Shown here piece after piece: positions 14,871 through 56,699 of a DNA stretch of 64,000 bases (positions are counted from its first letter, which is position 1; each line of letters starts with the position of its first letter). The notes beneath the pieces are model-generated. The model was given only the letters and a program-made list of their open reading frames with translations, did not search any database and was not told where the DNA came from. Position numbers and translations under genes: made by a program. Source of the DNA: Symbiodinium sp. CCMP2592 (lineage: Eukaryota; Sar; Dinophyceae; Suessiales; Symbiodiniaceae); contig CAJNDT010000331.1 in NCBI GenBank assembly GCA_905221615.1, positions 176,878 through 240,877 on the forward strand, in the 5' to 3' direction.

Positions 14871-14919
14871 TCATGCGCAGCAAAAGTGTTAACTTTACCT
14901 CGCGTTCGAACACTCGACC

Positions 14920-16190
14920 ACGTCAATCTCTGTGAAGGGTTGCAAAATTCATTTCAATGCATATCAAAAGTAGCAACTTTACCTCGCGTTCGTGCATTCG
15001 ACCATGCCAATCCCTGTGAATGGTTGCAAAGTGCCAATCCCTGTGAAGGGTTGCAAATTGCACCTCAATGCACTTAAAAGCGCTTCAAAGTAGCCACTTT
15101 ACCTCGCGTTCGCGCACTCGATCACACCAATCCCTGTGAAAGGTTGCAAGTTCCCGCACTCGACCACGCCAATCCCTGCGAAGGGTTGCAAATTGCGCTT
15201 CGAAGCGCATCTAACATATGTAACTTTAGCTGGCGTTTGGGCGCTCGACCAAGCCAATCCACGCAGAGGGTTGCGCGCTTTACCTAGCGTTTGGGCGCTC
15301 GACCAAACCAATCCCTGTGAAGGGTTCCGGCGCGCGCCTAAAATGTGTAACTTTACCCAGCGTTTGGGCGCTCGACCAGGCCAATCCCTGTGAATGGTTG
15401 CACGGGAACCCTAAAATGTGTAACTTTGCCTAGCGTTTGGGCGCTCGACCAAGCCAATCCCTGTGAATGGTTGCGCGCGGCGCCTAAAGTGTGTAACTTT
15501 ATCTAGCGTTTGGGCGTTCGACCAGGCAAATCCCTGTGAAGGGTTGCACACGGCGCCTAATAAGTTAAAAAATGTGTAACTTTACCTAGCGTTTGGGCGC
15601 TCGACCAGGCCAATCCCTGTGAAGGGTTGGCCTAGAATGTGTAACTTTACCTAGCCAATCCCTGTGAAAGGTTGCGGCGCGCGCCGAAAATGTGTAACTT
15701 TACCTAGCGTTTGGGCGCTCGACCAAGCCAATCCCTGTGAATGGTTGCGCGCGGCGCCTAAAGTGTGTAACTTTACCTAACGTTTGGGCGTTCGACCAGG
15801 CGAATCCCTGTGAAGGGTTGCACGCGGCGCCTAATAAGTTAAAAAATGTGTAACTTTACCTAGCGTTTGGGCGCTCGGCCAGGCCAATCCCTGTGAAGGG
15901 TTGCACACGCACCCTAAAATGTGCAACTTTACCCAGCGTTTGAGCGCTCGACCAAGCCAATCCCTGTGAAGGGTTGCGCGCGGCAACTAAAATGTGTAAC
16001 TTTGCCTAGCGTTTGAACGCTCGACCAGGCCAATCCCTGTGAAGGGTTGGCCTAGAATGTGTAACTTTACCTAGCGTTTGAGCGCTCGACCAGGCCAATC
16101 CCTGTGAAAGGTTGCGGCGCGCCGAAAATGTGTAACTTTACCTAGCGTTTGGGCGCTCGACCAAGCCAATCCCTGTGAAGGGTTGCATTC
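14920..16190 (+). repeat. Minisatellite, ~19 copies of a 40-100 base unit
   Basis: The core CCAATCCCTGTGAAGGGTTG (with variants) occurs about 19 times. It is usually preceded by GTGTAACTTTACCTAGCG and TTTGGGCGCTCGACCA, with a typical period near 72 bases. The core is a near-palindrome around GTGA, so each unit could form a small hairpin. Units in the second half carry GCGCGC-rich spacers, and those in the first half carry AT-rich ones. No frame stays open across the array. Confidence 0.92.
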
Positions 16191-20217: not shown

Positions 20218-20335
20218 CGAAACGTACGTGACGATTTGTGCCACCAGATTCTCCGGGATTAATCGTGGCCATGGCTTGTCGCCTAACCTGTGCTATAAAG
20301 ACGGACGCGGCAGCGAGGATGTGAATGGGTAGCAC
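20218..20335 (+). repeat. SINE-like dispersed repeat, 5' part (copy 3)
   Basis: This block, with ACGTACGTGACGA, AGATTCTCCGG, ATCGTGGCCATGGCTT and GGCAGCGAGGATGTGAAT, matches the minus strand at 56,567-56,695. There it lies upstream of the repeat end found at 56,444-56,482, so it is probably the 5' part of the same family. Here it stops at the edge of the copia polyprotein, and the first polyprotein Met codon lies inside it. Confidence 0.75.
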
Positions 20336-22595
20336 ACCAAGCAGTAGGGTGCAGGCACACTGCGGCTATGCAAAGCTCGCAAGGACAATGACGATCTCTG
20401 AGCTGCCACCTTCCCTACTAGAAACAGCTCATCAACAACGGCACAGTCCGATGAGAGGACCTGAACCAGGAAGGGTAAAGACTCCAAGGGGTCTCAAAAA
20501 TCTTCTTAAGAAGAGATACACAGTCAAACCTCCAGTGGAGGAAAGATCTGTCGTCCCAGGAGCCGATCACGGGACGGAGGTAGAACCACTCGAGTCAAGA
20601 GAATACCCTGCTCCTAGGACCGACTCACCAGCAGGTGAGAGAGACAATGGAGAAGAGATTGTGCCTGAACCGGCACCCTCTCTTCCGATTGCCCTTCGTA
20701 GGATTCATGAGAAGCTCAAGGATCCAGTTGAACTTTACAAGCTTCATCTGAAGCACCGTCACATGAATACAGATCAGTTCAAAAGAAGGACAAAGGCTCT
20801 TCAGATTCCAAAGGAAATTTACGAGCTTTATGACCAACTGGTCAAGAAGTGCTCAGCTTGTCAGGAACACAAACGAGCTCCTTCAAGGGCAAAAATATCA
20901 GGTCTAAGATCCGAAACTTTCGGGGATCTAACTTTCGTAGACCATGGTGAATTGCCAATTCCTGGCAAGTCTAGTCGACTCATATTTCTCATACTCTATG
21001 ATGGAGCGACAAACCTCCTGACATCTGAAGTTGTTCAGGACAAGGAGGAACATACGACAATGTCCATCATGAATGACTATTTTGAGAAATACCAAATCAA
21101 CCCAAAGGTTGTTGTTGGAGATCAAGCCTTCATGACTCCAAAAATGGAGGCCTATTATAATCGGCAGAATATCAAACCTGTAGCGACCGGCCCTGGCACA
21201 CCATGGCCTAACAGGGCCGAGGCAGCTGTACGATTGCTGAAACATCAGATCAAGATCATACTTCAGATTCTCAAGGATGGTGATCCAGAGTATAATGGTA
21301 TCACTATGAAGTATGGTAACTTAGTGCGTCAGGCATGTCTGGCAAGAAACTCCTCAATCACATACGGAGGAGTAACTCCTCTAGAAATGGCTTTCGGTAG
21401 ACGTCCTCGAGATGTTATAACACCCGAGAACGCAGACCCCAATCAGTTGACTGGTAATCCCACCGATACTGAGGTTACAGCAAGAGCCATTAAGGAACTT
21501 GCCAACAAGGCCTATCAGGAAGCACGCCAATCTGATGACCTCAGGAGAGATCTCGCGTCGCGGCTCTCGATGACCGAAGGACCCTTCTCCTTAGGAGATA
21601 AGGTCTATTATTGGTCAGAGGATAAATCCAAAATCGGATCAACCGGATCCAAACATGGATCCTGGCTTAAAGGAAAGGTTATCTCCGAACTCGGAGGTTC
21701 CATGGTAGGTGTTGATTTAGGCACCCGTATTGTCCGTGTGAATATCTCAAAACTGAGAAAGAACTATGACATCACATCGGATGTAGAGATTCCCCTAGCA
21801 CCAGATGAGGAAACTCTTACATCGGAAGGTTCAGACCATGCCAGCTGTATGGTCACCTTTGATGCTTCCCTGATTTCATCAGATCTGACAATACCTCATC
21901 ATGAGTGTCACTGGCAGGTAACCAGTTCAGGAAAGATTGATTTCCTAGAGCTCTACGGAGGATCACCTCGTATGAGTCACAAGGCTGCTCTATCAGGATT
22001 GAGAGTAGGACAGCCGATAGACCTGCGCAGCGGATTAGATCTTGAACAGCCTCAAGGCCGTTCAAAGCTTCTAAGAATCATCAAAGAACAAGAACCTACC
22101 ATTATTGTGATGTCTCCAGACCATTCTCAATGGTCCAGCTGGTATTCTCAGTGGAAGAAAGGCTCTAGCAAGAGACTTTCGATCCTCAAGTTCTGTGAAT
22201 GTATAGCAGATCACCAAATGAAACTTGGACGATACTTCGTCCTAGAGAATCCTTATTACAGCAAGCTCTGGTCCACACCAGAGGCCAAACGGTTGTTCTC
22301 TAACCGAAAGGTTAGCTATGAGGTATGCAATCTACAGGCCTATGGTATGCAAGATCCAAAAGGATACTATGAGTCTAGATCTTCGATCTTCATGCATAAC
22401 CTGCCGCAGCAGGTGTTGACTCCTATACATAGGAACTTCCCAAAGCCTAAATCTCCGACCTCATCACCCAAAGGTGAAACGGGTATTCAAGGCTACAGTC
22501 TCAAAACTAAGCTGGCGCAAGTGTATCCGTATGAATTTTGTGGCAAGGTTTCTGCGCCGGGATTCGTATGCATCGCATCTTTCCTTGCTCACTGA
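20325..22595 (+). CDS. Copia-type integrase with cytosine-methyltransferase-like domain (pol part 1)
   Basis: This 756-codon frame encodes the front of a copia polyprotein. Residues ~140-181 form the integrase zinc-binding region (H-x3-H at HLKHRH, then CSACQEH). The catalytic triad is visible as Asp206 (FVDHGE), Asp266 (VVGDQAF) and Glu299 (NRAEAAV), so integration of element cDNA is the expected role. Spacing between the last two acidic residues is 32, slightly short of the usual 35. Residues ~537-660 resemble a C5-cytosine methyltransferase fold: motif I-like DFLELYGGS, a motif IV-like SPDHSQWS where the catalytic Pro-Cys is replaced by Pro-Asp, and motif VI-like FVLENP. No Gag or protease is seen. 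The first few residues derive from an adjacent dispersed repeat, so the true N-terminus is probably lost or elsewhere. Coding continues in another frame near codon 740. Confidence 0.88.
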   Translation: MGSTPSSRVQAHCGYAKLARTMTISELPPSLLETAHQQRHSPMRGPEPGRVKTPRGLKNLLKKRYTVKPPVEERSVVPGADHGTEVEPLESREYPAPRTDSPAGERDNGEEIVPEPAPSLPIALRRIHEKLKDPVELYKLHLKHRHMNTDQFKRRTKALQIPKEIYELYDQLVKKCSACQEHKRAPSRAKISGLRSETFGDLTFVDHGELPIPGKSSRLIFLILYDGATNLLTSEVVQDKEEHTTMSIMNDYFEKYQINPKVVVGDQAFMTPKMEAYYNRQNIKPVATGPGTPWPNRAEAAVRLLKHQIKIILQILKDGDPEYNGITMKYGNLVRQACLARNSSITYGGVTPLEMAFGRRPRDVITPENADPNQLTGNPTDTEVTARAIKELANKAYQEARQSDDLRRDLASRLSMTEGPFSLGDKVYYWSEDKSKIGSTGSKHGSWLKGKVISELGGSMVGVDLGTRIVRVNISKLRKNYDITSDVEIPLAPDEETLTSEGSDHASCMVTFDASLISSDLTIPHHECHWQVTSSGKIDFLELYGGSPRMSHKAALSGLRVGQPIDLRSGLDLEQPQGRSKLLRIIKEQEPTIIVMSPDHSQWSSWYSQWKKGSSKRLSILKFCECIADHQMKLGRYFVLENPYYSKLWSTPEAKRLFSNRKVSYEVCNLQAYGMQDPKGYYESRSSIFMHNLPQQVLTPIHRNFPKPKSPTSSPKGETGIQGYSLKTKLAQVYPYEFCGKVSAPGFVCIASFLAH

Positions 22596-23235
22596 TATCT
22601 TGCAGTATTCAGGAGACGAATGTCTCCATGGATTGTGCGATCTGCTCGACCAAGAGTATTCGCTTTTGACAATCAATCCTCTCAAGGATTCTAAGTTGCT
22701 GCAAGATCCCAAAATCCGTTCACTTGTGACCAGAGTTAATTCTCTATCGAGTAAAACTGAGTTACCATTGCATCATTCCAAACCATCACCGTCCCTGGAT
22801 GCGTTGGTATCAGATATTACTCATTTAAGATCCAGACTTTTGCCAGGATCTGGCTTTGAGCAATGTACTCTTTACAGAGGCACTTTCGGAACAATGAAAA
22901 CACTAACAAGTGTTACTGATGGCGTCCTTGTTTTCTGGAACAAGAAGCGACCAAACCAGACCATGACCTGTTGTCTTCCGCATCAGGTGTCTTGGAACAA
23001 AATGCACCCAACAACATTCTCGGGGGTGCTGTTCCAAATGACAGGTTGCAAATCTTCACCGTCTGTCCGGCCGCCACCGGATGTCATTATGTCTGATGAA
23101 GAAGTCTCGCCATCAGATCCGTCAGAGCCAATGAGTACCAACAGGTCTCGCGTGACGTCTGACGATGCCTCAATGCCGGAGCCAGATCAACCTATGTCTC
23201 CTGGCGTTCCTCCGTCGCGTCCTCCTCCTCCCTTA
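22552..23235 (+). CDS. Copia polyprotein linker, shifted frame (pol part 2)
   Basis: This segment, open in frame 1, has protein-like, acidic and Pro/Ser-rich composition (for example EEVSPSDPSEPMSTN). It bridges the integrase/methyltransferase frame to the RT frame. The upstream frame closes at 22,595 and the downstream frame becomes coherent from the CCT-repeat near 23,220-23,240. Two opposite frame changes therefore separate the three parts. The second lies in a CCTCCTCCTCC run, a likely site for an indel or sequencing error. Programmed frameshifting is not suggested by any obvious slippery site plus structure. Confidence 0.6.
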
Positions 23236-23276
23236 TACCTCCACCGCGACTTCCGGCAGTTTCATCCGATGAGCTC

Positions 23277-25790
23277 GTGGCTCCTGCTCGGGCTAAGCCT
23301 CGCCTACATCCGCCTCCTCGCGAGCCGTCTCCTCGGCGTCTGGGGGGTGATGTGTCGCCAAGGTCTTCATCGGAAAGAAAGGTTTCGCCGCATAAACAGA
23401 AGTCACCTCCACAGGTGCCTACTCCAAAGCCTAAGCCAAAGGCGGCACCGCAACAGTCAGGACCGATTCTCCCATTGCAACAGGATGAAGGAGAATCCTC
23501 TGAAGAGATGGTTCCCGATGATCCCGGACAACCGTCCGTACTTCCTCATACGTCAGGTTCTCCTGAACCGGAAAGTGATGCTGAGTCTGATGACACAAGG
23601 TATTACTCTGACGAGGAAGGTGATCTTGTTGTGGATGAGAAGGACTGGATTCTTCTATCTGATGAACAGAAACTGTGTAGCAACACAGGATCCTTCTCGA
23701 TGCCGCGCTACATGCATGGCGGCCCTGTGGACGTCCGAGAGGTAACCTCAAGAGTGAGATCGGACCGAACACGGTACAGACCTTCCAAGAAGATTCGATC
23801 CGATATCCGTGAAGAGTATGATCTCTTAACGGAAGAGGATAAAGCCTTATCTGTGAGTCCTTATAGGAACTCATCCAATCTTACCAAGAAGGCACAACGG
23901 AAGGAAGCGACCGCTAAGGAGAAGCGAGAAATGAAGAAGCAGTTCGACGAAGCAAAGGCAGCTGAGTATCAGAGCTGGCTGGACAATGATGTGTTTGAGC
24001 TTGTAGATACACGCGAGCTCGGAAACATCCAAAATTATGTGACAGGTCGATGGGTCCTAACTCTAAAAAGAGATAAGGATGGAAACTTTCTGAAATGCAA
24101 GGCCCGTTGGGTCTTACGAAGTTTCCAGGATCGACAAAAGGATATCCAGCAAACTGATAGTCCTGCCGCTAGTCGTCCAGGCTTCCGTTTGGCGATTCAA
24201 TTGGCAGCTAACAAGCTGTGGAATCTGACACACATTGATCTTAAGACCGCCTTTCTGCAAGGTGAGGCTTACGATGAGTCTCGGGACATCATCTGCCAGA
24301 TTCCTCCTGAAGCAGGCTATCCTCCTTACATAGCTGCGAGGATGAAAAAGCCCGCCTATGGACTCAATGATGCACCTCGCAGATGGTGGAACATCGTAGA
24401 CAAGGCCCTCTTGTCCTACGGCCTTGTTCCTACTCGTGCAGACCGTTGTACATATGTTCTGTACGGTAAGAAGTCTGCAACAGCAGAGGCGGAACTTAAG
24501 AAGTCTCAGCCGAAGTCAATGGAGTCAGCAATCGACTATCTCCTTGATCCCATAGCAGGCAATAATGCCAAGGGGAGAGAAGTTCATGGAGTAGTCTGTT
24601 TGCACGTAGATGATTTGTGCATGGCCGGTGATGACACCTTTCGTAAGGCCGTGATCGATTCGATCAAAAAGGAGTTTGCGGTAGGTTCTGAGGACACAAA
24701 CGATATTATGTTTGTAGGACAAAGACTAGTCTGGAAGGATGCAACAGCATCTGTACCAGCTCACATTTCTGTGAATCAGAACCTTGCAGTCGAGGCCTTA
24801 GAAGAAATTGTGTTTGACAAGAAGCTCAACAATGAGCAGCCATGTACACCACAACAGCACACTGCATATCGAAGTGTTCTTGGTCAGATCAACTGGCTAC
24901 AAAGCCGGACCCAAGCTCACATTTGTTACCGTTTCAGCAGGTGTGCAAGCAAGGCTGCCAAGCCAACAATAGGTGACATCAGAGAACTGAACAAACTTGT
25001 TCGAATCCTCAAGGCCACTGAAGTAGAATTACGTTTTTGGCCGCTGAAAGGAAACCTTCGTATTCTAGGCTATCCGGATGCTTCCTATAGGAACAATGAT
25101 GATAAATCATCACAGAGAGCTCATGTCATTTTTCTTGCTGAAGAACGTAATCCGAAACTGAAGGGCGTGAAACAGTCCGCCGCAGCAACTTCTTCCAAGA
25201 AGAATGATTTCTCTGAGTCCTCCATTAAGGAAACATCCTCACGAGGTAGCCTGGTAGACTACGAATCTCACAAGATTACTACGACGACAATGTCCACTAC
25301 GGTGGCAGAGCTAAACGCACTCATGCGTTGCTTTGGTACCTGTTTGTTTCTTAAGGGACTCTGGGCTGATCTCTCATCAGAGACAGTGCCCATACACATA
25401 AGAACAGATGCAAACAATCTTGTCACGACTGCAGGTACAACCCATCTTCCGGAACAGAAGGAGACTCACCATCTTATCCAGATGCTTCGAAAGGAGTCTA
25501 ACTCGGGTTCCTTAGATGATTTGGCCCACGTCAGTTCAAAATATTGTCTTGCAGATGCCCTTACGAAACACTCAGCACAACCTGATGAGCTTATTAAGGC
25601 TCTTGAAACAGGGAATCTTCCCGAAACTGATATACATCCTCCATTTCGAGAGATGCGACAACACAAGGCTTTCACTGTTAGATGGATCATTGATCACCTA
25701 AAGAATGCCGCATCAGCGGTAGCTTTCCTTGGAGTTGATATCTCAACAGAGATCTACAAAATATTTTACTGCCAGGGAATATGGTGGTGA
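23277..25790 (+). CDS. Copia-type reverse transcriptase and RNase H (pol part 3)
   Basis: After a basic, Pro-rich linker the frame contains a copia RT (RVT_2). Visible landmarks are WVLTLKRDKDG and KARWVLR near the start of the domain, HIDLKTAFLQG, and the catalytic double aspartate in HVDDLCMAG (Asp445-Asp446). RNase H follows, with Asp601 (GYPDASY), a Glu near 679 (AELNAL), an Asp near 711 (RTDANNL) and the copia-typical LADALTKH near 760. These domains copy element RNA into cDNA and degrade the template. All key residues are present, so this part could be functional if the upstream frame breaks are errors. The listed start is only where an in-frame start-like codon (GTG) occurs. The frame reads sensibly further upstream. 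Confidence 0.9.
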   Translation: MAPARAKPRLHPPPREPSPRRLGGDVSPRSSSERKVSPHKQKSPPQVPTPKPKPKAAPQQSGPILPLQQDEGESSEEMVPDDPGQPSVLPHTSGSPEPESDAESDDTRYYSDEEGDLVVDEKDWILLSDEQKLCSNTGSFSMPRYMHGGPVDVREVTSRVRSDRTRYRPSKKIRSDIREEYDLLTEEDKALSVSPYRNSSNLTKKAQRKEATAKEKREMKKQFDEAKAAEYQSWLDNDVFELVDTRELGNIQNYVTGRWVLTLKRDKDGNFLKCKARWVLRSFQDRQKDIQQTDSPAASRPGFRLAIQLAANKLWNLTHIDLKTAFLQGEAYDESRDIICQIPPEAGYPPYIAARMKKPAYGLNDAPRRWWNIVDKALLSYGLVPTRADRCTYVLYGKKSATAEAELKKSQPKSMESAIDYLLDPIAGNNAKGREVHGVVCLHVDDLCMAGDDTFRKAVIDSIKKEFAVGSEDTNDIMFVGQRLVWKDATASVPAHISVNQNLAVEALEEIVFDKKLNNEQPCTPQQHTAYRSVLGQINWLQSRTQAHICYRFSRCASKAAKPTIGDIRELNKLVRILKATEVELRFWPLKGNLRILGYPDASYRNNDDKSSQRAHVIFLAEERNPKLKGVKQSAAATSSKKNDFSESSIKETSSRGSLVDYESHKITTTTMSTTVAELNALMRCFGTCLFLKGLWADLSSETVPIHIRTDANNLVTTAGTTHLPEQKETHHLIQMLRKESNSGSLDDLAHVSSKYCLADALTKHSAQPDELIKALETGNLPETDIHPPFREMRQHKAFTVRWIIDHLKNAASAVAFLGVDISTEIYKIFYCQGIWW

Positions 25791-28700
25791 ACAAGGAGAT
25801 TTACCGCACAACCATGTGCTGGATTTTCTTTCTAGACTATTTTTCGTCTAAAAGAAAATTTGTGTCTGCATGCTGCGTTCTCTTTTGCGCAAACATGTGC
25901 GTGAGTGATCCATGTTCTATATATTCCGCAGCCGCTTTCAGCTCACAGCTTCCAAAGCCTACTTTGCCTTTGTGCAACACCTTTGACCTCAGGGCCCGTA
26001 TGGCTACGAGGTCAAACTTTAACAGCCGACAGGGACACGCCTTACCAGGCGCAGTAGATGCACATCGTGGCCGACATCCACACATGGATATGCCATTCCC
26101 TGAATCACGCCAGCAGGCGTCAAGAAACACCGACCACGGTGGACAACGGGTGCACAGGAACGAGAAACAGCCCACGGTCATCTTTATTGGCCAGGATCGC
26201 GTTGTGAACCCGTCTTCAAGGGATTTATCAACCATGATATCCCATGGTGGACATGCAAGAGGAGCAAGGCTCAACCTACATTCCAAAAATGGAATTGAGA
26301 TGTACCAAGGAATCCTCCGTGGACCTTGGGATTGCAGTCCGCTTATCGATTGGGGTCAGAATACGCGCAACCATGCGCAGGACCCAAGAGACTTTGCAGT
26401 GATGTGTGCCCATCACTTCCAGACAGGCCTTCCGCAGGAGGTGATAAGCAGTGTCGTACTCACTGGCTCAGGAGAGTACCACTACGAAGAGTCAGTACCA
26501 AACCTGGTAAGATCGACAGGACTCTCCAGAGAGATGTGCTTCCACATTCTGGCCAAGGTCAATCAAATCGGCAGGTGGATGGCACATCTGACCAGACACC
26601 TTTCCAAGGAACGGCCGGATCTATTTGTAGGTAAGCACAATTACCTGCTACCTCTGGACTTACTTGCCGAGAATCATCTCGCAAAATACTCGCCGCAAGA
26701 AATGGCGCTCGCCGTCATTCTAAACACGAAGCAGAGGTTTGTGGTCGTAATGGACTACATCAGGAATGATCGTACCGTTTCGACCGAACCCGGTGTTACC
26801 ATTCCCCAAGATGCTGATGTGTCAAAACTGACACGGATCTACTTATCTGCAGTTGGGGGACACAGTGAGAGACATTCTCTATCAAGAGAAGAAGAACCAG
26901 ATCCAGAGGAACACAGGCCAAGGTCACAAATGACCGTAGGCGACTTTATGGCATCTGGGATCACCCCTGCGCAATCAAACGCCCAACGGCAGTCCACGAA
27001 TGCATCAATACCTACAAAAATGAGGGATTACGTCCAACAGGACGAGCGGTGTTACATCATGCATGCCACCGACCTAGAGGCCCTCGTGCCGATCCTGAGG
27101 CATGGTCTCGTTCCCTCATCTCTCTTGAAGCAAGTGGTCACATCACAGAGCTATCAAGCTCTCGTGACGGAGAACGGACGTCCCAACAGGGACACAGTTC
27201 AGTTCGCCATTCTGAACCTCGCCAATCCGAGTCCCATAGGACTGAGGCGTAACAAGCCATTACTGCTTGTGTATGATGCCACAAACGTGGCCAACGCTGT
27301 GACAAACTTGTGGCGTTCAGAAGGCGGAATGTTCGCCACTCCAGAAGTGGTGCAGGCCCACACTATCAGCGCCATATTCGCACCTACAGAGCAACTCTGG
27401 GTGTCTGAACAGTATGAAGAACTCAAAAGGGTTCGAGCCTGGTGGACCGACCACTGCAACGAAGAAATGCCCTCATTGACACAGGTGTCAAAGAAGTGGT
27501 GTGAGAATCATGGAAGGACTCTTGAAGAACAGTTGCTAAAATTGGCAAAGAAGCGTCAACCGCCTGAGCCTCCGAAGGCAAGATCTTCTCACAAGAAGTC
27601 ATTCTCCCTTCCACAGTCTGAAGACCTCAGAACTCCGAACACGGAGCATCCTTTTTCTGCAAGTGAGGTACCTCCGAAAACGGAGACCACAGTAGAGGAA
27701 GCTTCTGCATCAGTAGGAGTACATCCCAGATCGAAACTTGCAAGAAAGGCGGAGGCCGACCAGAATCCAGACAGCCTTATGGGCAAGCTCTGGAACGCAG
27801 ACGGTTCTGCAAGTGCTGCAGAGGTTCTCACAGCAACAACTTCCCACAAACCGCCAGATCCTATCCAGGATACTACTGAAAAAGTCATTCCTCCCAAGGA
27901 AGAATCATCTTCCGGAGAGACAGAGACAGAGCCCGAAGAACCAGATCCTAACCAGGATGATGACGATGGCTCTGAGGATGAATCAGATTCAGAAAAGTCG
28001 GACTCGTCCTCATCCTCTTCAGAACTCAGGGTGGATGTCAATCCGACATCACCTGGGATACCTGTTTCTTCGGAGCCTGCAAGGTCTTCCAAAAAGAGCA
28101 AGAAGAAGACGCCATCTGAAGAACTCGCAGAAGGAATGAGCAAGGTCAATCTTGACTCTCTCATGTCGGAAGCAGAGTTCATTCCAAGCTCGGATGAAGA
28201 ACCTCCGAAACCTAAAACTCCTAAAAAGGAGAAGGACAAGTTCGTGGTTATTTTCGATCCCGAAACTGGTGGTCACTACCGAGTCAATCGGAGTAAACTG
28301 AACCTCGACTACGAGGAACCGGCAGACGACGAAGATCTCCTCGAAGAGCGAGAGCGTATCAACGCTAGGCTCAAGGAAAATCAGAAACACGTCTACGCTC
28401 AATCAAAGCTGAACGCAGCTGCGAAAGAGGAGGTAAAAGAAAGGATCCACGTCTGCCGATGGAATCGAAAGAGGCAAAAGCCTCTCATGATCAAAGATTC
28501 CGAGGCCCCAGACGACGAAGAGTGGGATCAGCCTAAGGATAGCGCTGCATCCTCCTCTGAACCTCCTAAAAAGGAGAGAGTCGTAGGAGTCCGGAAGACT
28601 ACCATGAGCCTCAATCAGAAAATAAGATTGCTTCCGCGCCCGGAAGTCACACGCTGTCACCTGTGCAATCAAACAGGTTATTTCTGCTACCAATGTGGAA

Positions 28701-30772
28701 ATATCGTGTGTGCAGACTGTCGACTTACCCCACAGGGTAAACAGTCAATGTGCTCATGTGTCTTACCTGCCGAGTGCCTCCAGGGGTCAGTTGTTCCTGC
28801 CGGAATGTCCCCAGACGAGCGTCGTGCCGTCTACGAATCTGTCCTCAACGATGAGGATATAGATTTGGCGATGAAGGCAATTAATGAATACTGTGCCATC
28901 GCTCGAGAAAACTTCGTATACGCCAACCCTGGCGTCAATCCAAATACTATTCCGGACATTCGAAGCAACCCTGCGAGAACTTACACCAGTTCGACAGAAG
29001 CTCCAACCCTGGAGGAATACAAGAACATCAACAAGCAGCACATCAACATCCGTGATTCAAGAACATGCCATCCGGCATCGTTTCTTGCCCTGACGGGCTA
29101 TGAATCGAAAGATGTGTTGGATGCTCACTACGAAATTGTCCGAAACCGGATGGGAGGCGTAAGTGAGCAAAAAGACTATATCGAAGGATCCAACCCAGAC
29201 GCAGCCTCACTAGGCGTTGTTGTGTGCAACTGGGGAAACATGGATCGAGCTCCTGTCCCAGCAGGTAATCCCAAGAAAAAGCTCAAACCTGAGAAGGGAT
29301 TCGATTATCATCCGCTGATCGACATGTGCTTCAACAACTCAGCACATATTACCCTCGTACTCGAGGCAGGTGCATTGACATCGGATCACAGCATCCAGGT
29401 CATGCAGAGATTTGATTATCGAGGCATGCTGATCCACTCACCGGCTAACGAGCCGATTGCACCATCCATGTATTTGGGCGTGAAAGGAGATCCGACCACG
29501 GATATCGCCCTGATCCATCATTTTTACAGGCACCGAACAGTAAGGCCAAAAGATGGAGGCCAGAAGAGACAAATCTGGGCCTGCCATGGCGCCGTCTGTC
29601 GGATGACCTTCGGCTACCACTCTACTATTCCAGAAGCCAAGGAGTGGGTACACCCGCAAACGGGTCAGCGTATGACGCGACAAGATTACATGGATCTCTG
29701 CGGATCAGACCCTCTCAAGGGTAAGAATCCTGACGCTGACGGACCAAAGGATAGCTCATATCTCTGTCCAGAGTCATGGCTGACACTATCAGAGCTGTCT
29801 CCGGTTCCAGTGTTGTGCGAGTGGAACGGACACGTCGAGGGAGAACAACCTCCGGCTGAGGATTTTGAAACCTTTGTGGAAATCTTCTCAACAGAAGCCA
29901 CAACAGACCTCGACGAATTGTGGTGCACAAAAGGACCTTACAAGGTCGTCACCATTGCCATTGTTCATTTTAACTCGTACATGACCCATAAGGAACAGCA
30001 GAGGCGTGAGTACGTCAATGCCTTTCTGGACGAGATCCTTCCATTCAAACCAGACATCATCGCTGGGGACCTCAACAACATCGCAAGCAGACTCACCCTA
30101 AAGGGTGGCAATGTGCATCCTAGGAATGGCCTCTTCACTCTCTCACTAGAGAACAAGTTGGCAGCATTCAATCACAAGACAGATAGGCACTCACAAGTGC
30201 GCTACTCTTGCATCAATAACTCAGACCAGCATCGACTGGAATACGCCAACAGGCTCCTACCGGATGCAAAGGACAAATATGCAGACCTTGACTGCATTAA
30301 CGCCTATGTCTTGGACTGGGGTAAAACGCCGTACACGGCGACTCCGAGTCACAAGAAAGTCACCTCAGCCGTCGAAAGGACGTACTGGGAGCGAGTCTCA
30401 GACAGATGGCACGAGATCAACAGAACCAAGGAAATCGATGCCCGTCTCCATATCACTACCAAGAACTATTATTCCACTTTTTCCAATATCGACCTCTGGC
30501 TAGCTCCTTCCGACAAAGATTGGCATAGCCCACTAGGGTTCACAATCCAGCCTATGAGCACAAAAGGGAAGCACAGCAGGTCAAATGAACAAGTGGAGAA
30601 AATCGCTAAAAAGCGACAAGAGCACAATCAACGGCTAGCCGAACATCGGCAGTCGCAAGAACATTTCACATACTCTTCCGGTAACTACTGGTGGGATAAA
30701 TCACGACCATCAGGTCGTTCCCAGTCGTACAACAGGTGGTGGGAGAGGCCACAACCCGAACGTCCCAAATGA
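25781..30772 (+). CDS. Tpt1/KptA-like + zinc cluster + EEP nuclease protein, downstream of copia pol
   Basis: A single 1,663-codon frame. Residues ~414-560 resemble the RNA 2'-phosphotransferase (Tpt1/KptA, ADP-ribosyltransferase) fold: YIMHATDL...ILRHGLVP, then LLLVYDATN and LWRSEGGMFATPEV. Residues ~700-760 are a Ser/Glu/Asp-rich linker. Eight cysteines from 959 to ~992 (CHLCNQ, CYQCG, CADC, CSC) form a likely zinc cluster. Residues ~1145-1590 form an EEP nuclease with Glu1195 (LVLEAG), His1396 (IVHFNSY), Asp1430 (AGDLNN) and a terminal Asp1578/His1582 (SDKDWHSPL). The first ATG overlaps the pol stop (ATGGTGGTGA). The Met at 26,000 (MATRSNFN) is an alternative start that skips a hydrophobic, Cys-rich leader. 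Roles in target cleavage or RNA end processing are inference. The function of the N-terminal 400 residues is unknown. Confidence 0.8.
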   Translation: MVVNKEIYRTTMCWIFFLDYFSSKRKFVSACCVLFCANMCVSDPCSIYSAAAFSSQLPKPTLPLCNTFDLRARMATRSNFNSRQGHALPGAVDAHRGRHPHMDMPFPESRQQASRNTDHGGQRVHRNEKQPTVIFIGQDRVVNPSSRDLSTMISHGGHARGARLNLHSKNGIEMYQGILRGPWDCSPLIDWGQNTRNHAQDPRDFAVMCAHHFQTGLPQEVISSVVLTGSGEYHYEESVPNLVRSTGLSREMCFHILAKVNQIGRWMAHLTRHLSKERPDLFVGKHNYLLPLDLLAENHLAKYSPQEMALAVILNTKQRFVVVMDYIRNDRTVSTEPGVTIPQDADVSKLTRIYLSAVGGHSERHSLSREEEPDPEEHRPRSQMTVGDFMASGITPAQSNAQRQSTNASIPTKMRDYVQQDERCYIMHATDLEALVPILRHGLVPSSLLKQVVTSQSYQALVTENGRPNRDTVQFAILNLANPSPIGLRRNKPLLLVYDATNVANAVTNLWRSEGGMFATPEVVQAHTISAIFAPTEQLWVSEQYEELKRVRAWWTDHCNEEMPSLTQVSKKWCENHGRTLEEQLLKLAKKRQPPEPPKARSSHKKSFSLPQSEDLRTPNTEHPFSASEVPPKTETTVEEASASVGVHPRSKLARKAEADQNPDSLMGKLWNADGSASAAEVLTATTSHKPPDPIQDTTEKVIPPKEESSSGETETEPEEPDPNQDDDDGSEDESDSEKSDSSSSSSELRVDVNPTSPGIPVSSEPARSSKKSKKKTPSEELAEGMSKVNLDSLMSEAEFIPSSDEEPPKPKTPKKEKDKFVVIFDPETGGHYRVNRSKLNLDYEEPADDEDLLEERERINARLKENQKHVYAQSKLNAAAKEEVKERIHVCRWNRKRQKPLMIKDSEAPDDEEWDQPKDSAASSSEPPKKERVVGVRKTTMSLNQKIRLLPRPEVTRCHLCNQTGYFCYQCGNIVCADCRLTPQGKQSMCSCVLPAECLQGSVVPAGMSPDERRAVYESVLNDEDIDLAMKAINEYCAIARENFVYANPGVNPNTIPDIRSNPARTYTSSTEAPTLEEYKNINKQHINIRDSRTCHPASFLALTGYESKDVLDAHYEIVRNRMGGVSEQKDYIEGSNPDAASLGVVVCNWGNMDRAPVPAGNPKKKLKPEKGFDYHPLIDMCFNNSAHITLVLEAGALTSDHSIQVMQRFDYRGMLIHSPANEPIAPSMYLGVKGDPTTDIALIHHFYRHRTVRPKDGGQKRQIWACHGAVCRMTFGYHSTIPEAKEWVHPQTGQRMTRQDYMDLCGSDPLKGKNPDADGPKDSSYLCPESWLTLSELSPVPVLCEWNGHVEGEQPPAEDFETFVEIFSTEATTDLDELWCTKGPYKVVTIAIVHFNSYMTHKEQQRREYVNAFLDEILPFKPDIIAGDLNNIASRLTLKGGNVHPRNGLFTLSLENKLAAFNHKTDRHSQVRYSCINNSDQHRLEYANRLLPDAKDKYADLDCINAYVLDWGKTPYTATPSHKKVTSAVERTYWERVSDRWHEINRTKEIDARLHITTKNYYSTFSNIDLWLAPSDKDWHSPLGFTIQPMSTKGKHSRSNEQVEKIAKKRQEHNQRLAEHRQSQEHFTYSSGNYWWDKSRPSGRSQSYNRWWERPQPERPK

Positions 30773-31547
30773 ACCTCTGAATCCTCCACCAGGAAGAGAG
30801 CGGGCCTCTTCATCCGACCAACACGATCCTCAAGGTCTGGTGCTGATGGTGGACGTGAAGATTTTCTTCTCCTCCTGCAAGAGGAATCATCTTCTTCTTC
30901 CTCTGCTCGTTGCGCATCCATCAGGTTTTGATGTCTTGCGCTCGTGCTCCTCAATGTCACTCTGAGTTGGTGACTTCTCTTCATCGACTTCGTGAAGCTC
31001 GTCCAAGGACATGTTGAGCTTATCAACCACATTTGGTCTTTGATTTCTAAGTGCAAAAGCAGTCAAAACTGTTGCAGCCGCAGCTGGACTGTCAGGATGG
31101 TTCGGACACCCGAAACGTGGGGGAGCAAATGCAGAGTCAACAGAGACCGATCATTCCTCGCTGCCAGACTCACTAACAAGTGATGAGTTTTCCTTCTTCA
31201 GCATTGCATGGAATGTTTTCCTCTTGCTGATGGGACTCCAGTAGATGTGGAAGCAGTTGATGAGAGCTCCAGTTCAGTGTATAAAGCGACCACCGAAGTC
31301 AAAGGCAGCAGCCAAACAAAGTGCTCTTTTCTTCAAATCCGAGGACGAGCCGAGTCAAAGAGACCTGACAGAACGCAACAAAGTTAACTCACGAGAATCA
31401 ACGGATCTGCGACCAATCTGGCATACTGCGAGTAGCCAGTGCTAACGTCTCTCCAGCGAATGCTATCAGCTCAGACAACAAGAGATAAGCCAAAAGATTC
31501 TCTGCAAAACATGCTTCCATGCCGTAATGACGGCGGAGATTCGGATG

Positions 31548-31798
31548 GATTCCCTCTGGCAGAAAGTGTCAGGAACCTCCTTTTTCCATGTGGCCTAATT
31601 GATTCCTGTGGCAGAAAGTGCCCGGAACCTCGTTTTTTTGTATGCCTAATGGATTCCTTGTGACTTATCCTATGGCCTAACCTATGGCCTAATACACCTT
31701 CCCTATGACCTAATCATTTTCGCGTTTTAGGAATGCAATCTTTTCTTTTTTTCCCACACGGAAATGATAAGTTCCGGACACTTTCTGCCAGAGGAATC
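31548..31798. repeat. Foldback element with ~28-base terminal inverted repeats
   Basis: GATTCCCTCTGGCAGAAAGT (31,548 on) is inverted at 31,771-31,798, ending CTTTCTGCCAGAGGAATC. A third, direct copy sits at 31,601-31,628. The interior is T-rich with repeated TATGGCCTAA words. It looks like a short non-autonomous element or one with a duplicated terminus. No clear target duplication is visible. Confidence 0.75.
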
Positions 31799-32701: not shown

Positions 32702-33119
32702 AAGTTTGATCCCTGCACCCACAGCGGCTTGAATCTCGTCGGCTGCGCATGTCATGAGGTAAGTTTGGGGAACGTCTGGTGGAGGACTGTTTGGAAGGTC
32801 GGGGCTTGTCCAAAAGCAGCTGTGTGCTTGCCCTTGTTGCTGCTGCTGCTGCTGCAGCCAGCGGAATGCAACTGTGGAGGGCCGACCTGGCGAAGCCAGA
32901 ATTGCTTGTGTTTTGCGGGCCTGGAAATGGGGTCGCGACAGCCCCATAACGTGGGCTTCGTCCTGGCAGTGCAGCGGGCTCGCCAGTTGACCCGCGCGGA
33001 TTTTTGGTGTTCTTTCTGTGGATGGGAGTCGTAGTTCAAGCTCTGGGAAGTTGACCGACGTGGCTTCAACGTTTCCCTTTTGGTTTTTGCAAACTCGTCG
33101 GCCAGACTATGCAGCTTTA

Positions 33120-33284
33120 CTCTGGGGGGTCATACGCCTGTAGCACGAAGCTGGCCTGTCTCAGGCCCCCCTCAAGTGGTCCCCAGTCCTGTGGTGGAGG
33201 GTTAGCTGGAGCCGGAGCCGGAGCAGCTGGAGCTGGAGCTGGAGCGGCGCCCTCGTTGCTTGCCTCGTCACCATGGCTCGCCAT
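33120..33284 (-). pseudogene. Truncated first exon of pogo-type transposase gene
   Basis: Begins at the same ATG as the complete copies (peptide MASHG...) with the Ala/Pro-rich N-terminus (APAPAPAAPAPAPAN), and reads on to QAYDPPE. The unit boundary at 33,120 then removes the rest of the gene. It shows which way the array is oriented and that its left edge cuts a gene. Not functional as it stands. Confidence 0.7.
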
Positions 33285-33922
33285 GGTCTCAGGTCGGTCT
33301 CGCGCCCTCCTTACTCGTTCACAGTGCACCAAAACGGCTGCGGGTGCAAACATTCGCTCAACAAAGACCACATGCTGCACTTGCACTGAGAGCACAGCCC
33401 TTGCCTCGAGATTGCATGGGTGCTACGGTACCTGGCTGGAGGCCTACCTACACCCCAAGCCGACCCACGCAGGACAAGTGAGCTAACCGAGAAAGAATCT
33501 GTTTCCTCAGCCCTAAACGCTCTGGAGGCGCCGCACATTGTGTGGAGAGGGCGCCGTAGGCACCCACGGAAAAAGCAGGCCCCCGCACCTTGCCGGACGA
33601 ACCGAACAGGCAGAAAGGTGGGTCTTACGCACCTGTCGCAATGCAACCTGGCGTTCTTAGGGCTTTCGGGGCAGAAAAAGCTTCTACACGCTTCCAAGCG
33701 GGATTAGGGGTTTAGAGGCCCACCTACACTCCTGTTCGGGCCAGGCAGAGAGGCTCTACAGCACAACGCTCGCTGTTCTGACCCCTGCAGGCTTTTGCCT
33801 TTGGCCAGATGCGGCGAGCAATTGAGCAAACTTCAAAAACCAAGACGAACTCTGATTACCAATTACTTTAGATTAGCACCAGAAGTTTGCTCACTTGCTC
33901 TCGTCCGTTTTCGCAATGGCTT

Positions 33923-34185
33923 CCCTAAACCCACCCCTGCAGACCCCTCCTTCAACCCTGTTCCCCTGCAGATCCTCCCCTAAACCCTCTTGTAGATCCT
34001 TCCCTAAACCCACCTTGCAATTTCTTCGCAGACCCCCTTGCAGATCCTGCCCTGAACCCTCCCTTGCAGACCTCTCCCTCAACTCCCTCGCTGCAGATGC
34101 TACCCTAAACCCTCCCTCGCAGATCCCTCCCTCAACTTCCTCGCTGCAGATCGTCCCCTAAACCCTCCCTTGCAAATCCTCCTAA
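33923..34185 (+). repeat. CCCTAAAC-rich subtelomere-like repeat in unit 1
   Basis: CCCTAAACCC and CCTCAACTCC alternate with GCAGATCC every 15-35 bases. Copies in the other units begin at 40,365 and 46,811. It resembles a decayed telomere tract amplified with PstI-like CTGCAG spacers. Confidence 0.75.
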
Positions 34186-34621
34186 ACCCCGTCCCGGCGG
34201 AAAGCAAGCATCTAGTGCCAGCTACAACAAGCAAATTTTTCTGACAGCGCAGCCTCGCAGACCTAGACCCACGCTTAACAATCTCAAAACCGGAAACCCT
34301 GAGACCCTGCAGAATAAAGCTCTGAGGCAGCCCGCATTTCGCGCTCCGCATGGGGCATGTCATCCACAACCTCACAGGCGCAACACTTGCAACTTGCTAA
34401 GACTTGCAAGTACTGCGCACTTCCCGCACTGACAGAAGCACCAACTGCCAATACCGTTCTTCTTCTCCAAATCGGTTCAACTAGTGGAAAAGGTATGGAA
34501 AACAGTATAATATTTCCGAAAACTGCTATTCTAACCAATAATGCCCGAATGACAAGTCCGACTGCGTCCACTCTCACGAGCTTCGCAGCCAATGGCCAGT
34601 GAAAAACCTACAAACCTACTA

Positions 34622-34795
34622 CAGTCTCCAAGCTGCCAGAGGCCCATGGCAGACTGTGGTCACCACCAGCTGCCAGCAAGGCCCAGGTGCATGACCTTTC
34701 AGCTCACACCTACTTCAAGTCTCCAAGCTGCCAAAGGCCCATGGCAGACTGCGGACTCCACCAGCTGTCCCCAGGACCCAGGTGCAAGACCGTGG
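34622..34795 (+). repeat. ~96-base direct duplication in unit 1
   Basis: AGTCTCCAAGCTGCCAGAGG and CCCATGGCAGACTG recur about 96 bases apart, with the CAGCTG...CCCAGGTGCA block following both. The same pair is present in units 2 and 3. Confidence 0.75.
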
Positions 34796-35002
34796 TGCTA
34801 CACCCTAAAGCCTAGTGGTGCAGTCTGCTCCAAACGATCCACAGGAGGAACCACCCTCCCCCTCACCCCCTCAAACAATGATGCCGAAACAAAGCTTAAG
34901 AGCAACAGAGGCAAGGTCTGAATCTTTGATACTTGCGAATTGCGGAAGCACGCCCGCGAAGTACATCTTTGTTGCGGTGGGGCAAGGGGAGGGTACTACA
35001 AT

Positions 35003-35980
35003 TGATGGACAAAATCCTGCATGACCCTAAGGACCCTAAACTATGGGAATTATATGGTATATTCCTTATAATGGATAATGCAGGATTTTGTCCATCAGCC
35101 GTACGAACAGCGTCTGTCCCTGAATCTTGAACCCTGCACTAGCCCACGTTGTAATCGCTCAAGCATGCTTCGCAGTGGGGCCCCAGCCTGCTTTACACTG
35201 TGGCTGGTATCAGCACGACAGACCTTGGGAAGAGCCGATTTCGTGCAGGTTTGTTGAGCCCTACTTTAAGGTTTTGAAGGTTTAGGGTTTGATACTTTAG
35301 GTCTGACAAGCCGACAGGCTTTGAGGCTTTGCGATTTGCACTGGAAAACGCTACCCAAATCAACCAAGCCCGCAAAACAGCGCCAAATAGATAGAACACG
35401 TGATAACCTATTTTTTTTTACGAGCGCACTGCCGCTGGTACTACTGTTGATGGACAAAATCCTGCATGACCCTAAGGACCCTAAACTATGGGAATTATAT
35501 GGTAGATTCCTTATACTGGATAATGCAGGATTTTGTCCATCAACCGTAGGAACAGCGTCTGTCCCTGAATCTTGAACCCTGCACTTTAACCCACGTCGTA
35601 ATCGCTCAAGCATGCTTCGCAGTGGGGCCCCAGCCTGCTTTACACCGTGAGCACGACAGACCTTGGGAAGGGCCGATTTCGTGCAGGTTTGTTGAGCCCT
35701 ACTTTAAGGTTTTGAAGGTTTAGGGTTTGATACTTTAGGTCTGACAAGCCGACAGGCTTTGAGGCTTTGCGATTTGCACTGGAAAACGCTACCCAAATCA
35801 ACCAAGCCCGCAAAACAGCGCCAAATAGATAGAACACGTGATAACCTATTTTTTTTTACGAGCGCACTGCCGCTGGTACTACTGTTGATGGACAAAATCC
35901 TGCATGACCCTAAGGACCCTAAACTATGGGAATTATATGGTATATTCCTTATACTGGATAATGCAGGATTTTGTCCATCA
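35003..35980. repeat. Three 95-bp perfect-stem hairpins in ~440-base subrepeats, unit 1
   Basis: Hairpins at 35,003-35,097, 35,448-35,542 and 35,886-35,980. Each starts TGATGGACAAAATCCTGCAT and ends with its exact reverse complement, with a 55-base centre containing CCCTAAGGACCCTAAAC. The second and third sit in a ~438-base tandem duplication that also carries the GGTTTAGGGTTTGATACTTT block. Compact, non-coding, MITE-like. Confidence 0.9.
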
Positions 35981-36115
35981 ACCGTAGGAACAGCGTCTGT
36001 CCCTGAATCTTGAACCCTGCACTTTAACCCACGTCGTAATCGCTCAAGCATGCTTCGCAGTGAGGCCCCAGCCTGCTTTACACCGTGAGCACGACAGACC
36101 TTGGGAAGGGCCGAT

Positions 36116-36431
36116 GCACTCTCAACGCTCACAGTTGGGCACGAAGTACCGCCGTCTCCAAGCTTAACTCTGAGCTGGCGCGCCTTTCGAAGGGCAACCA
36201 GAATGCCCACTTCCATCTTCCATACCGGTCCATACCTGGTGTAGAAGCGAAGTGCAGTCGAATGGCCTGACCTACCTGTGTTCCTCTGCACTCTCAACGC
36301 TCACAGTTGGGCACGAAGTACGGCAGTCTCCAAGCTTAACTCTCAGAGATGGCGCGCCTTTCGAAGGGCATCAAGAATGCCCACTTCCATCTTCCATACC
36401 TGGTGTAGAAGCAAAGTGCAGTCGAATGGGC
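36116..36431 (+). repeat. ~150-base direct duplication in unit 1
   Basis: GCACTCTCAACGCTCACAGT begins both copies (36,116 and 36,288), which run to about 36,266 and 36,431. They differ by small indels. Equivalent pairs occur at 42,560-42,875 and 49,004-49,319. Confidence 0.85.
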
Positions 36432-36669
36432 AAGTGGAGCGTTCGTTCTCTGAGTCCTTGGCAGGCTGGCGGCCTGCGGCCGAAAACTGCAGCACCCAAA
36501 ATTGTTTCGGGATCTGTAAATGCACTCCTAGCAGCACCTCACAGGGATTCGGTATTGGACGCTTGCAAAACTGCATGCCGGCCAATTTTGCTGCTTGCAG
36601 AAACAATTTGGTCATGAAGACCCACAACCTCACCTTTACATCTGCTTTAGCTGCACTTTTTAACTCGCA

Positions 36670-36985
36670 GTGTAGAAGATCGCAGGCGAAAGCCGCAGCA
36701 CCTCTACATCTGCCTTGGCCGTTGCACAGTGTAGAGGATCGCAGGCAAAAGCCGCAGCACCTCTACATCTGCCTTGGCCTTGGCCGTTGCACAGTGTAGA
36801 GGATCGCAGGCAAAGGCCGCAGCACCTCTACATCTGCCTTGGCCCTTGCACTTTTTTAACTGGCAGTGTAGAGGATCGCAGGCGAAAGCCGCAGCACCTC
36901 TACATCTGCCTTGGTCCTGGCACTTTCTAACTGGCAGTAAAAGGCTCGCAGGCAAACGCCGCAGCACCTCTACACTTGCCTTTTT
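36670..36985 (+). repeat. Five 59-72 base hairpin repeats in unit 1
   Basis: Repeats start at 36,670, 36,729, 36,794, 36,866 and 36,936. Within most copies TGTAGAGG is followed about 22 bases later by CCTCTACA, so each repeat is itself a stem-loop with a GC-rich loop (ATCGCAGGC...GCCGCAGCA). Confidence 0.88.
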
Positions 36986-37145
36986 CTTATCTGAATGCAC
37001 ACATCTGGAGCATGGATCGGACTTTTTCTGTCACTTCGAGAGTACTTCGAGCTTGGAGAACTTCAGACCACACGCAGGGATATGTTTCCCCTGCAAATGA
37101 TCTTACGGGGCCGCTAGACGGGCCGCTGCAGATCTGCAAACGATC

Positions 37146-37328
37146 TTAGGGGGCCGCTTGGCGGGCCGCTAGGATGATTTCCAAGTCTCTCACTGAGAGA
37201 GCCTTCGTCTTCTTTACAAGTTTCGCCTTGCGCTTCTGCACAGCGCGCAAAGCCTTCTGGTGCTCTCTGCAGGCCTTTTTGGCGTCCAGCTTCCTTGCCT
37301 TGAGCATGCGAATCTGGGCGTCGAGGTC
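37146..37328 (-). CDS. Coiled-coil, Lys/Arg-rich terminal exon (unit 1)
   Basis: Reads DLDAQIRMLKARKLDAKKA... to ...SVRDLEIILAARQAAP and stops at 37,146-37,148. About 60 residues, highly charged, with heptad-like spacing. It is preceded on the minus strand by a pyrimidine-rich acceptor (CCTTCTCCTTGTAG) directly before the first codon, as expected for a last exon. It resembles in style the LKQLKRELKAANMAKYR segment of the neighbouring transposase, so it may be a remnant of a related element. Upstream exons were not found. Identical exons occur in the other two units. Confidence 0.55.
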   Translation of the reverse strand, partial: DLDAQIRMLKARKLDAKKACREHQKALRAVQKRKAKLVKKTKALSVRDLEIILAARQAAP

Positions 37329-37609
37329 CTACAAGGAGAAGGATGCTAATTGAGGGCGTCGAGGTCCTATTAAGAGTTCCCAGATTCAGGGGTTTTTTCA
37401 CTACCAAAACAGACGAATCTGGGCGTCGAGGTTCAGGGGGTCTACTTAGCAGCAAAACGTAACCACAACCCTCCAGCCCCCTACAGTAGAGCCTGGCACT
37501 GACGATTAAGCCGACTGACGTATGTCAGAGGGAGAGTCTGTGGCAACACCAGTAGGAACAGAAAGCGCTACTCAAGACAGCACAAACTTGGGAGCTAGTG
37601 AGGCTACGA

Positions 37610-40364: not shown

Positions 40365-40628
40365 CCCTAAACCCACCCCTGCAGACCCCTCCTTCAACCC
40401 TGTTCCCCTGCAGATCCTCCCCTAAACCCTCTTGTAGATCCTTCCCTAAACCCACCTTGCAATTTCTTCGCAGACCCCCTTGCAGATCCTGCCCTGAAAC
40501 CCTCCCTTGCAGACCTCTCCCTCAACTCCCTCGCTGCAGATGCTACCCTAAACCCTCCCTCGCAGATCCCTCCCTCAACTTCCTCGCTGCAGATCGTCCC
40601 CTAAACCCTCCCTTGCAAATCCTCCTAA
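40365..40628 (+). repeat. CCCTAAAC-rich repeat in unit 2
   Basis: Equivalent of the tract at 33,923 in unit 1, with one extra base (CCCTGAAACCC near 40,493). Confidence 0.75.
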
Positions 40629-56015: not shown

Positions 56016-56086
56016 ACGGCTCACGCAGGTAAAGCCTGTGCGCCGCAGCTAGTTTTGTCCTCTTAATTAGGATGTCTCACCGCTGT

Positions 56087-56695: not shown

Positions 56696-56699
56696 AGCG

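Follow-up and report, generated by a model that had tools for sequence, protein, structure and literature searches.

A large Copia-type retrotransposon of Symbiodinium with a third open reading frame that may serve RNA-end processing

Introduction

Ty1/copia retrotransposons (Pseudoviridae) integrate by means of their own integrase, and in one Copia group, the Sireviruses, an envelope-like gene sits after pol. Such a gene is often found in these plant elements (PMC3599292). Other retroelements have gained nucleic-acid-modifying enzymes: orchid Ty3/gypsy elements carry an N6-methyladenosine (m6A) demethylase domain (PMC9289625) and Symbiodinium has DNA methyltransferase (DNMT) retrotransposons, its Copia elements being reported to have no DNMT domain (PMC5890265). 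KptA domains are known from viral polyproteins, namely those of Beihai picorna-like virus and the Botrylloides leachii nidovirus (PMC9503650). Among the titles and abstract openings of the open-licence literature searched, we found no report of a Tpt1/KptA domain in a retrotransposon. Here we describe a large Ty1/copia-type long terminal repeat (LTR) retrotransposon of Symbiodinium sp. CCMP2592, a remnant of which lies in a 64,000-nucleotide stretch of DNA (C331:176878-240877, here called the window) of the 1.098-Gb assembly that we searched.

Like other Ty1/copia elements, this element has TG...CA LTRs, a string resembling a primer-binding site (PBS) after the 5' LTR, and an integrase-like part ahead of an RVT_2-type reverse transcriptase (RT). 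It differs in its length (15.9 kb), in a third open reading frame (ORF3) of 2,301 amino acids (aa) with a Tpt1-like lobe, and in a near-exact second copy, between pol and ORF3, of a motif adjacent to the 3' LTR. It shares an extra gene with the Sireviruses and other envelope-carrying Copia elements (PMC3599292), from which ORF3 is set apart by its enzyme-like domain rather than by sequence comparison to envelope-like proteins. With Tpt1/KptA phosphotransferases ORF3 shares a profile match and motif residues in the NAD lobe; it differs in a sub-threshold score, HAT in place of HGT, and its location in a huge retroelement protein. The viral polyproteins likewise hold a KptA-type domain inside a protein of a selfish element, whereas here the element is a retroelement and the frame a separate one. 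The orchid and DNMT retroelements also gained a nucleic-acid-modifying enzyme; both the enzyme and the element class differ here. From sequence comparisons, we interpret it as a novel Copia variant, and we slightly favour a role of its accessory gene in processing RNA ends with the help of NAD.

Intact copies have LTRs around both pol and ORF3

The copy on contig C4877 has two identical 250-bp LTRs with TG...CA ends, enclosing 15,920 bp. Putative gag, protease and integrase parts lie together with RT in one open frame of 2,658 codons, followed by a spacer and then by the third protein, whose frame spans 2,393 codons from stop to stop and gives 2,301 aa from its Met. A few bases after the 5' LTR we observed the string TGGTAGCGGAGCC, which bears a likeness to initiator tRNA-Met and is a candidate PBS. 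The copy on contig C180 closely resembles that of C4877 (LTR match 99.6%).

A 600-bp stretch across the pol-ORF3 junction was 100% identical at 40/40 scored places (the best 40 of 751 candidates), which indicates that amplification was very recent. C180 has two junctions separated by 16.3 kb, one copy ending, at its 3' side, directly before the next. Adjoining copies of this kind would explain the ORF3-gag-pol order in gene models such as P0006; in three gene models (P0003, P0005 and P0006) pieces of pol and of ORF3 fall within one predicted protein.

We also inspected the insertion sites. The expected LTR end was present in six of nine fetched 3' stretches, each time followed by at least 4 C, and the LTR start in five of ten fetched 5' stretches, each with at least 4 consecutive C in the last 8 bases before the LTR. 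C-runs also border both ends of the C4877 and C180 copies. Because the insertions lie in C-runs, 5-bp target-site duplications are indistinguishable. The flanks (L039-L042, L064-L082) point to a candidate target preference for C-runs, seen in the flanks of copies alone.

Relatives of the long frame were found in Symbiodinium species, among other sources. When P0009 was used to look for subfamilies further removed, the only copies recovered were ~56% identical to it, and most of them had a C4877-type ORF3 frame. Viral contigs scanned with query A3 and the RT piece gave no relatives.

Pol and ORF3 are linked across the genome

We searched the genome with an RT piece and with a piece of ORF3 named after its endonuclease/exonuclease/phosphatase (EEP)-like core. 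The counts given for these and the other genome searches are of the best-scoring places among the candidates; they are lower bounds and favour well-kept copies. Scoring covered the best 61 of 3,659 RT candidates and the best 74 of 1,019 EEP candidates. Pol frames of exactly 2,658 codons hold 23/61 RT places, and ORF3 frames of 2,391-2,405 codons hold 28/74 EEP places. At 17 RT places an EEP match lies 2.87-3.15 kb downstream on the same strand, where 0.012 would be expected for random places. With the junction search added, 28/61 RT places were linked. From the remaining 33 we fetched 300 bases, 3.7-4.0 kb downstream, and observed an ORF3 match at 24 and none at 9; the match at C320 is limited to 14 aa and lies on the opposite strand. 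Same-strand ORF3 sequence was thus present downstream at 51/61 scored RT places, window included. At two places (C4579 and C2890) the match was to a part further along ORF3, an indication of deletions. In the reverse direction, an RT or junction match was listed upstream of 27/74 EEP places, and five of seven further EEP places that we sampled had RT upstream.

Some places weigh against a fixed unit: ORF3 was absent at the probed distance from 9/61 RT places and on the opposite strand at 1/61, and RT was not found upstream at two of the seven sampled EEP places. The window copy alone, with its broken pol and open ORF3, could suggest that the two are neighbours by chance or that ORF3 is a host gene, as could the 10/61 RT places without same-strand ORF3 at the probed distance. 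This explanation is refuted by the near-constant linkage and by the LTRs around both genes in C4877 and C180, to which the 17 direct pairs and the identical junctions may be added, and we give it practically no weight. Pol and ORF3 form one composite unit. The first-pass annotation had proposed such a composite retroelement, to be checked by co-occurrence within LTR-bounded copies; both the co-occurrence and the LTRs were found, the latter in C4877 and C180. Around the window copy, comparison with C4877 detected no such LTR.

The window holds a remnant of the element

All three open frames reported earlier are present: 20325-22595, 23163-25790 and 25781-30772, the last of which has 1,663 codons when counted from its ATG at 25781. 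Comparison with C4877 resolved the remnant into the following features.

20466-22586, + strand: pol remnant, comprising the putative integrase and a region first called methyltransferase-like (tblastn, C4877 pol aa 884-1583, 90% identity)
22540-23196, + strand: middle of pol in a different frame (frame 1; tblastn, C4877 pol aa 1579-1797, 90% identity)
23235-25790, + strand: RT and C-terminus of pol (Pfam RVT_2, E 2.2e-16; pol aa 1810-2479, 94% identity)
25791-25999, + strand: pol-ORF3 spacer, probably non-coding, with conserved blocks inside (codon-position statistics; alignment with C4877)
25824-25835, + strand: pyrimidine-rich stretch with terminal AG, TTTTCTTTCTAG (C4877 has TTTTCTATTTAG at the same place)
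25849-25868, + strand: 20-nt motif TAAAAGAAAATTTGTGTCTG (near-copy beside the 3' LTR of C4877)
26000-30772, + strand: ORF3, 1,590 aa in the window, C-terminally truncated (its Met is codon 88 of the open frame)
26564-27343, + strand: Tpt1/KptA-like region (Pfam PTS_2-RNA, E 4.5e-5, below cut-off)
27029-27346, + strand: putative NAD-binding (ADP-ribosyltransferase, ART) lobe of the Tpt1-like region, HAT replacing HGT (hhalign)
28646-28723, + strand: CxxC-rich candidate zinc cluster (zf-B_box, E 0.14; CxxC at aa 877, 888 and 896 of C4877 ORF3)
29933-30085, + strand: EEP-like core, VHFNS...GDLNN (hhalign)
30839-31043, - strand: segment of the ORF3 region, ~200 bp, inverted relative to C4877 (blastn and tblastn)
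31086-31565, + strand: displaced C-terminal part of ORF3 (tblastn, C4877 ORF3 frame aa 1785-1947, 58% identity)
31188-31241, + strand: hydrophobic, possibly transmembrane stretch (Kyte-Doolittle peak of 1.56 in C4877)

Homology to C4877 pol starts at pol aa 884 (position 20466), and gag and protease are missing. Two frame breaks (near 22.59 kb and 23.2 kb) interrupt pol, and the inverted ~200-bp segment after 30772 severs the C-terminus of the window ORF3. Near the end of the remnant we observed a 41-nt inverted repeat (31553-31593 and 31754-31794; arms 160 nt apart, 83% complementary).

The domains first assigned to pol fared differently in Pfam searches. RT was confirmed (RVT_2, E 1.2e-17 in C4877, against 2.2e-16 in the window). 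For integrase, rve was not found in the window piece and all matches were sub-threshold: an IS481-transposase profile in the window piece (E 1.1e-4) and rve in C4877 (E 0.022). On these sub-threshold matches, the integrase-like part precedes RT in the single 2,658-codon frame. Neither RNase H nor a methyltransferase was matched in the window or C4877 at E up to 1; judging by position and motifs, RNase H would lie in the C-terminus of pol. Pfam gave nothing in the 700-aa N-terminal piece of pol, the presumed gag/aspartic protease region. A DSGCT string seen in the comparison with C4877 presumably marks the aspartic protease.

ORF3 probably starts after a conserved spacer

ORF3 was first reported to overlap pol by 10 bases. 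The overlap is present in the letters (ATGGTGGTGA) but is misleading. Between the window and C4877, codons 15-88 of the open frame showed 34/26/28 differences at codon positions 1/2/3 and a dN/dS of ~0.73. From the Met at 26000 on, third-position differences dominated in every segment tested. Because codons 15-88 lack a third-position excess, the probable first codon of ORF3 is Met 26000, and a spacer of 209 nt separates it from pol. Two other arrangements for ORF3, a stop-start overlap and a -1 frameshift, were considered and rejected, the codon statistics arguing against coding in the overlap region.

Central polypurine tracts exist in retroviruses and Ty1. We found the TAAAAGAAAATTTGTGTCTG motif at the same spacer place in C4877, with a one-base-different copy 2 nt before the 3' LTR. 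It occurred once only in the window, and not at all in L039 or in shuffled sequences; one further hit, in L040, is part of an inverted copy nearby. The spacer motif is a candidate second (central) primer site of the polypurine-tract type; a role in RNA processing is also possible.

The pyrimidine-AG at 25824-25835 might act as the acceptor site if an ORF3 mRNA is produced by trans-splicing. A search for spliced-leader relicts in the LTR, the leader and two spacers gave nothing significant (74 to 858 of 1000 shuffles reached the score). At ~25926-25945 the spacer holds a string that we take to resemble the dinoflagellate spliced leader; the likeness, which recurs in C4877, falls short of significance (score reached by 74 and 218 of 1000 shuffles).

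ORF3 is conserved as a protein and evolves faster than pol

We compared substitution rates between the window and C4877 (Nei-Gojobori), with dS near saturation in places. RT had a dN of 0.029 and a dS of 0.95, and the integrase region 0.050 and 1.42. ORF3 had a dN of 0.247 and a dS of 1.93, with an overall dN/dS of 0.13. In 200-codon steps along ORF3, dS was computable for 6/8, and the first step, which contains the spacer, gave a dN/dS of 0.38. Among pairs compared over the EEP region, dN/dS was 0.05-0.12 in 7/10, and the other three were saturated. ORF3 is under purifying selection as a protein. Identity between the window and C4877 was 67% for ORF3 and 92-95% for pol; ORF3 is conserved as a protein yet changes several-fold faster than pol.

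The NAD lobe of ORF3 resembles Tpt1

The Tpt1/KptA domain of the first-pass annotation is a real but weak match. Pfam PTS_2-RNA gave E 0.0015 with the whole frame and E 4.5e-5 with a 494-aa piece, over profile positions 5-176 of 177. Profile comparison with hhalign, in which the NAD lobe only was aligned, scored 31.3 against six KptA proteins, above the maximum of 120 shuffles (24.9). Against a ten-sequence Tpt1 set the score was 37.3, 41.5, 32.3 and 31.9 with the E. coli, LINE (long interspersed nuclear element), L088 and L090 sequences as reference, respectively; the shuffle maxima for this wider set were 25.8 for the LINE reference and 28.4 for L088 (100 shuffles each).

For Tpt1, an Arg-His-Arg-Arg tetrad, HGT and Arg139 have been reported (PMC6333775). 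All ORF3 rows that extend over the positions concerned keep TRH, xRF, HAT, the R of NRD/HRN, and LR. Their apparent counterparts in CthTpt1, matched by profile or by eye, are Arg18-His19, Arg68, HGT 101-103, Arg121 and Arg139, the first three tetrad residues having been placed by eye.

Several results count against a Tpt1 assignment. The Pfam scores (24 bits for the window piece, 15.6 in C4877 and C180) fall below the cut-off of 26, and only 3/7 members tested had a Pfam match. The hhalign probabilities are modest (18% for the KptA set, 20-69% for the wider set). The RNA lobe (winged helix), which lies within the sub-threshold Pfam alignment of the window piece, scored 15.2 by itself in hhalign, under a shuffle maximum of 19.3. 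A plain hidden Markov model of the ORF3 region failed to tell true Tpt1 and decoys apart, and Q replaces the H of 'GGHS' in 3/8 rows. AlphaFold models made for the EEP piece and the Tpt1 piece carried no usable information (pLDDT 30 and 38). Taken with the shuffle controls and the kept residues, we consider it highly probable that the NAD lobe has an ART fold of Tpt1 type, in divergent form.

An EEP-like core is a tentative nuclease

The EEP nuclease that had been read into ORF3 was only partly borne out. Profile-profile matches of 22 to 99 columns centred on the GDLNN core, while Pfam Exo_endo_phos was silent at E up to 1. The EEP profile, from which five of 30 loci were left out for internal stops (L010, L027, L033, L036 and L037), scored 37.8 in hhalign against 20 own-genome PF03372 sequences. 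None of 150 shuffles reached this score (maximum 27.2), and the reversed profile gave at most 22.5. GDLNN is kept in 27/29 covering rows, the H of VHFNS in 29/30 and the E of LVLEA, the candidate catalytic Glu of the N-terminal half, in 31/31.

These results suggest, tentatively, that the EEP-like part is a nuclease. We hold it comparably plausible that the assignment is wrong and that GDLNN is a chance likeness within another fold: few columns are aligned, the N half has no profile match, and neither Pfam nor PDB searches of ORF3 returned an EEP domain. With one more template the core score drops to 30-34, a value without its own shuffle control, which also speaks against the nuclease. A score above all 150 column shuffles, and the low score of the reversed profile, argue against chance likeness.

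Elsewhere in ORF3, the proposed zinc cluster has its CxxC motifs, but Pfam zf-B_box reached just E 0.14. PDB sequence searches gave nothing useful, and NCBIfam no convincing match. Because Copia elements have an integrase of their own, an EEP-like nuclease need not act in integration.

ORF3 may act on RNA ends

The first-pass annotation described ORF3 as the element's own RNA-end-processing and nuclease module. Profile comparison supports a divergent Tpt1-type NAD lobe in it; the nuclease is tentative. That ORF3 acts on RNA ends is a possibility that we place somewhat below an even chance. ORF3 would be translated from a separate mRNA or through internal initiation, with spliced-leader trans-splicing at the spacer pyrimidine-AG as a possible route. 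Its Tpt1-like NAD lobe would use NAD+ on phosphorylated RNA ends, those of the element or of the primer, and thereby allow RNA that is cleaved or 2'-phosphorylated to be rejoined or copied. With less support, the EEP-like part might trim ends as a metal-dependent phosphodiesterase, and the protein might be tethered by its hydrophobic C-terminal segment.

ORF3 could instead be an envelope-like or particle-associated structural protein, its Tpt1- and EEP-like parts being inactive relics kept for binding. Its position after pol, its size, its fast evolution (67% identity vs 92-95% for pol) and the hydrophobic segment near its C-terminus fit such a protein, and an envelope-like gene is frequent in some plant Copia elements, the Sireviruses (PMC3599292). 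This is unlikely in our view, given that the putative NAD+- and phosphate-binding motif residues are kept across subfamilies, with GDLNN in all but two of the covering rows.

A LINE family of the same genome carries canonical Tpt1

We also searched the genome for canonical Tpt1. PF01885 gave 152 matches (the best 150 of 1,550 candidates were scored), all above the cut-off, and 68 of the listed rows share a score of 134.2 bits, mostly in frames of ~665 aa. At one locus (C890, 309000-328999), such a frame (L092:5892-7886, - strand) matched Tpt1 at E 1.4e-39 and held a PARP-like stretch (E 0.00026, sub-threshold). The frame beside it (L093:3-4694, - strand) matched RVT_1 (4.7e-22), the UCH protease (3.3e-8) and, below threshold, Exo_endo_phos (0.0049). 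This domain order (EEP, RVT_1) identifies the family as a LINE; it also has zinc fingers. In an RT search from the C890 frame (the best 139 of 2,667 candidate places scored), 97/139 RT places were followed, on their own strand, by a listed Tpt1 place that starts 5-7 kb further on, and 97/150 listed Tpt1 places have such an RT. An order with Tpt1 ahead of RT was considered for the C890 LINE and rejected, as the copies there are tandem and the genome-wide places show Tpt1 downstream. At a single other locus (C634, near 53700-64172, - strand; L091, L094), a Tpt1 frame lies upstream, on the same strand, of frames matching Exo_endo_phos (5.2e-4, sub-threshold) and RVT_1 (1.9e-16).

Tpt1 follows the polymerase in both the LINE family and the Copia element. 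It is conceivable, though we hold it with reserve, that the RNA 2'-phosphotransferase fold was acquired repeatedly by retroelements in this dinoflagellate, and in either case behind the gene for the polymerase: as canonical Tpt1 downstream of the EEP-RT frame in the LINE, and as a divergent Tpt1 with an EEP-like part, in a third ORF, in the Copia lineage. If true, RNA ends with a 2'-phosphate would repeatedly hinder retrotransposition in dinoflagellates, or serve the host as a defence against it.

The ART lobe might instead modify host proteins or host RNA as a counter-defence and take no part in repair of element RNA. ARTs are used in virus-host conflict (PMC9503650), and ORF3 evolves several-fold faster than pol. 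The nearest Pfam profile, on the other hand, is that of Tpt1, an RNA 2'-phosphate enzyme, and a LINE family of the same genome has the canonical form; we regard a counter-defence role as improbable. A Copia lineage that keeps a 2,301-aa protein under purifying selection, together with LINE Tpt1 at about a hundred linked places, makes it testable whether retroelements mend the ends of RNA and, if so, which nuclease or ligase of the host they thereby counter.

Other features of the window

Outside the element, the window holds a tandem array at 33119-50374, with ~2.7 units of 6.44 kb that are 99.4% identical. A DDE_1 transposase-like frame (37610-38419, - strand; E 1.4e-8) lies in this array. 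Five open frames of 275-735 aa at 53560-63999 (+ strand) had no Pfam match at E up to 0.1. Diverged internal repeat arrays of ~70-93% identity occupy 6949-11128 and 14883-16187.

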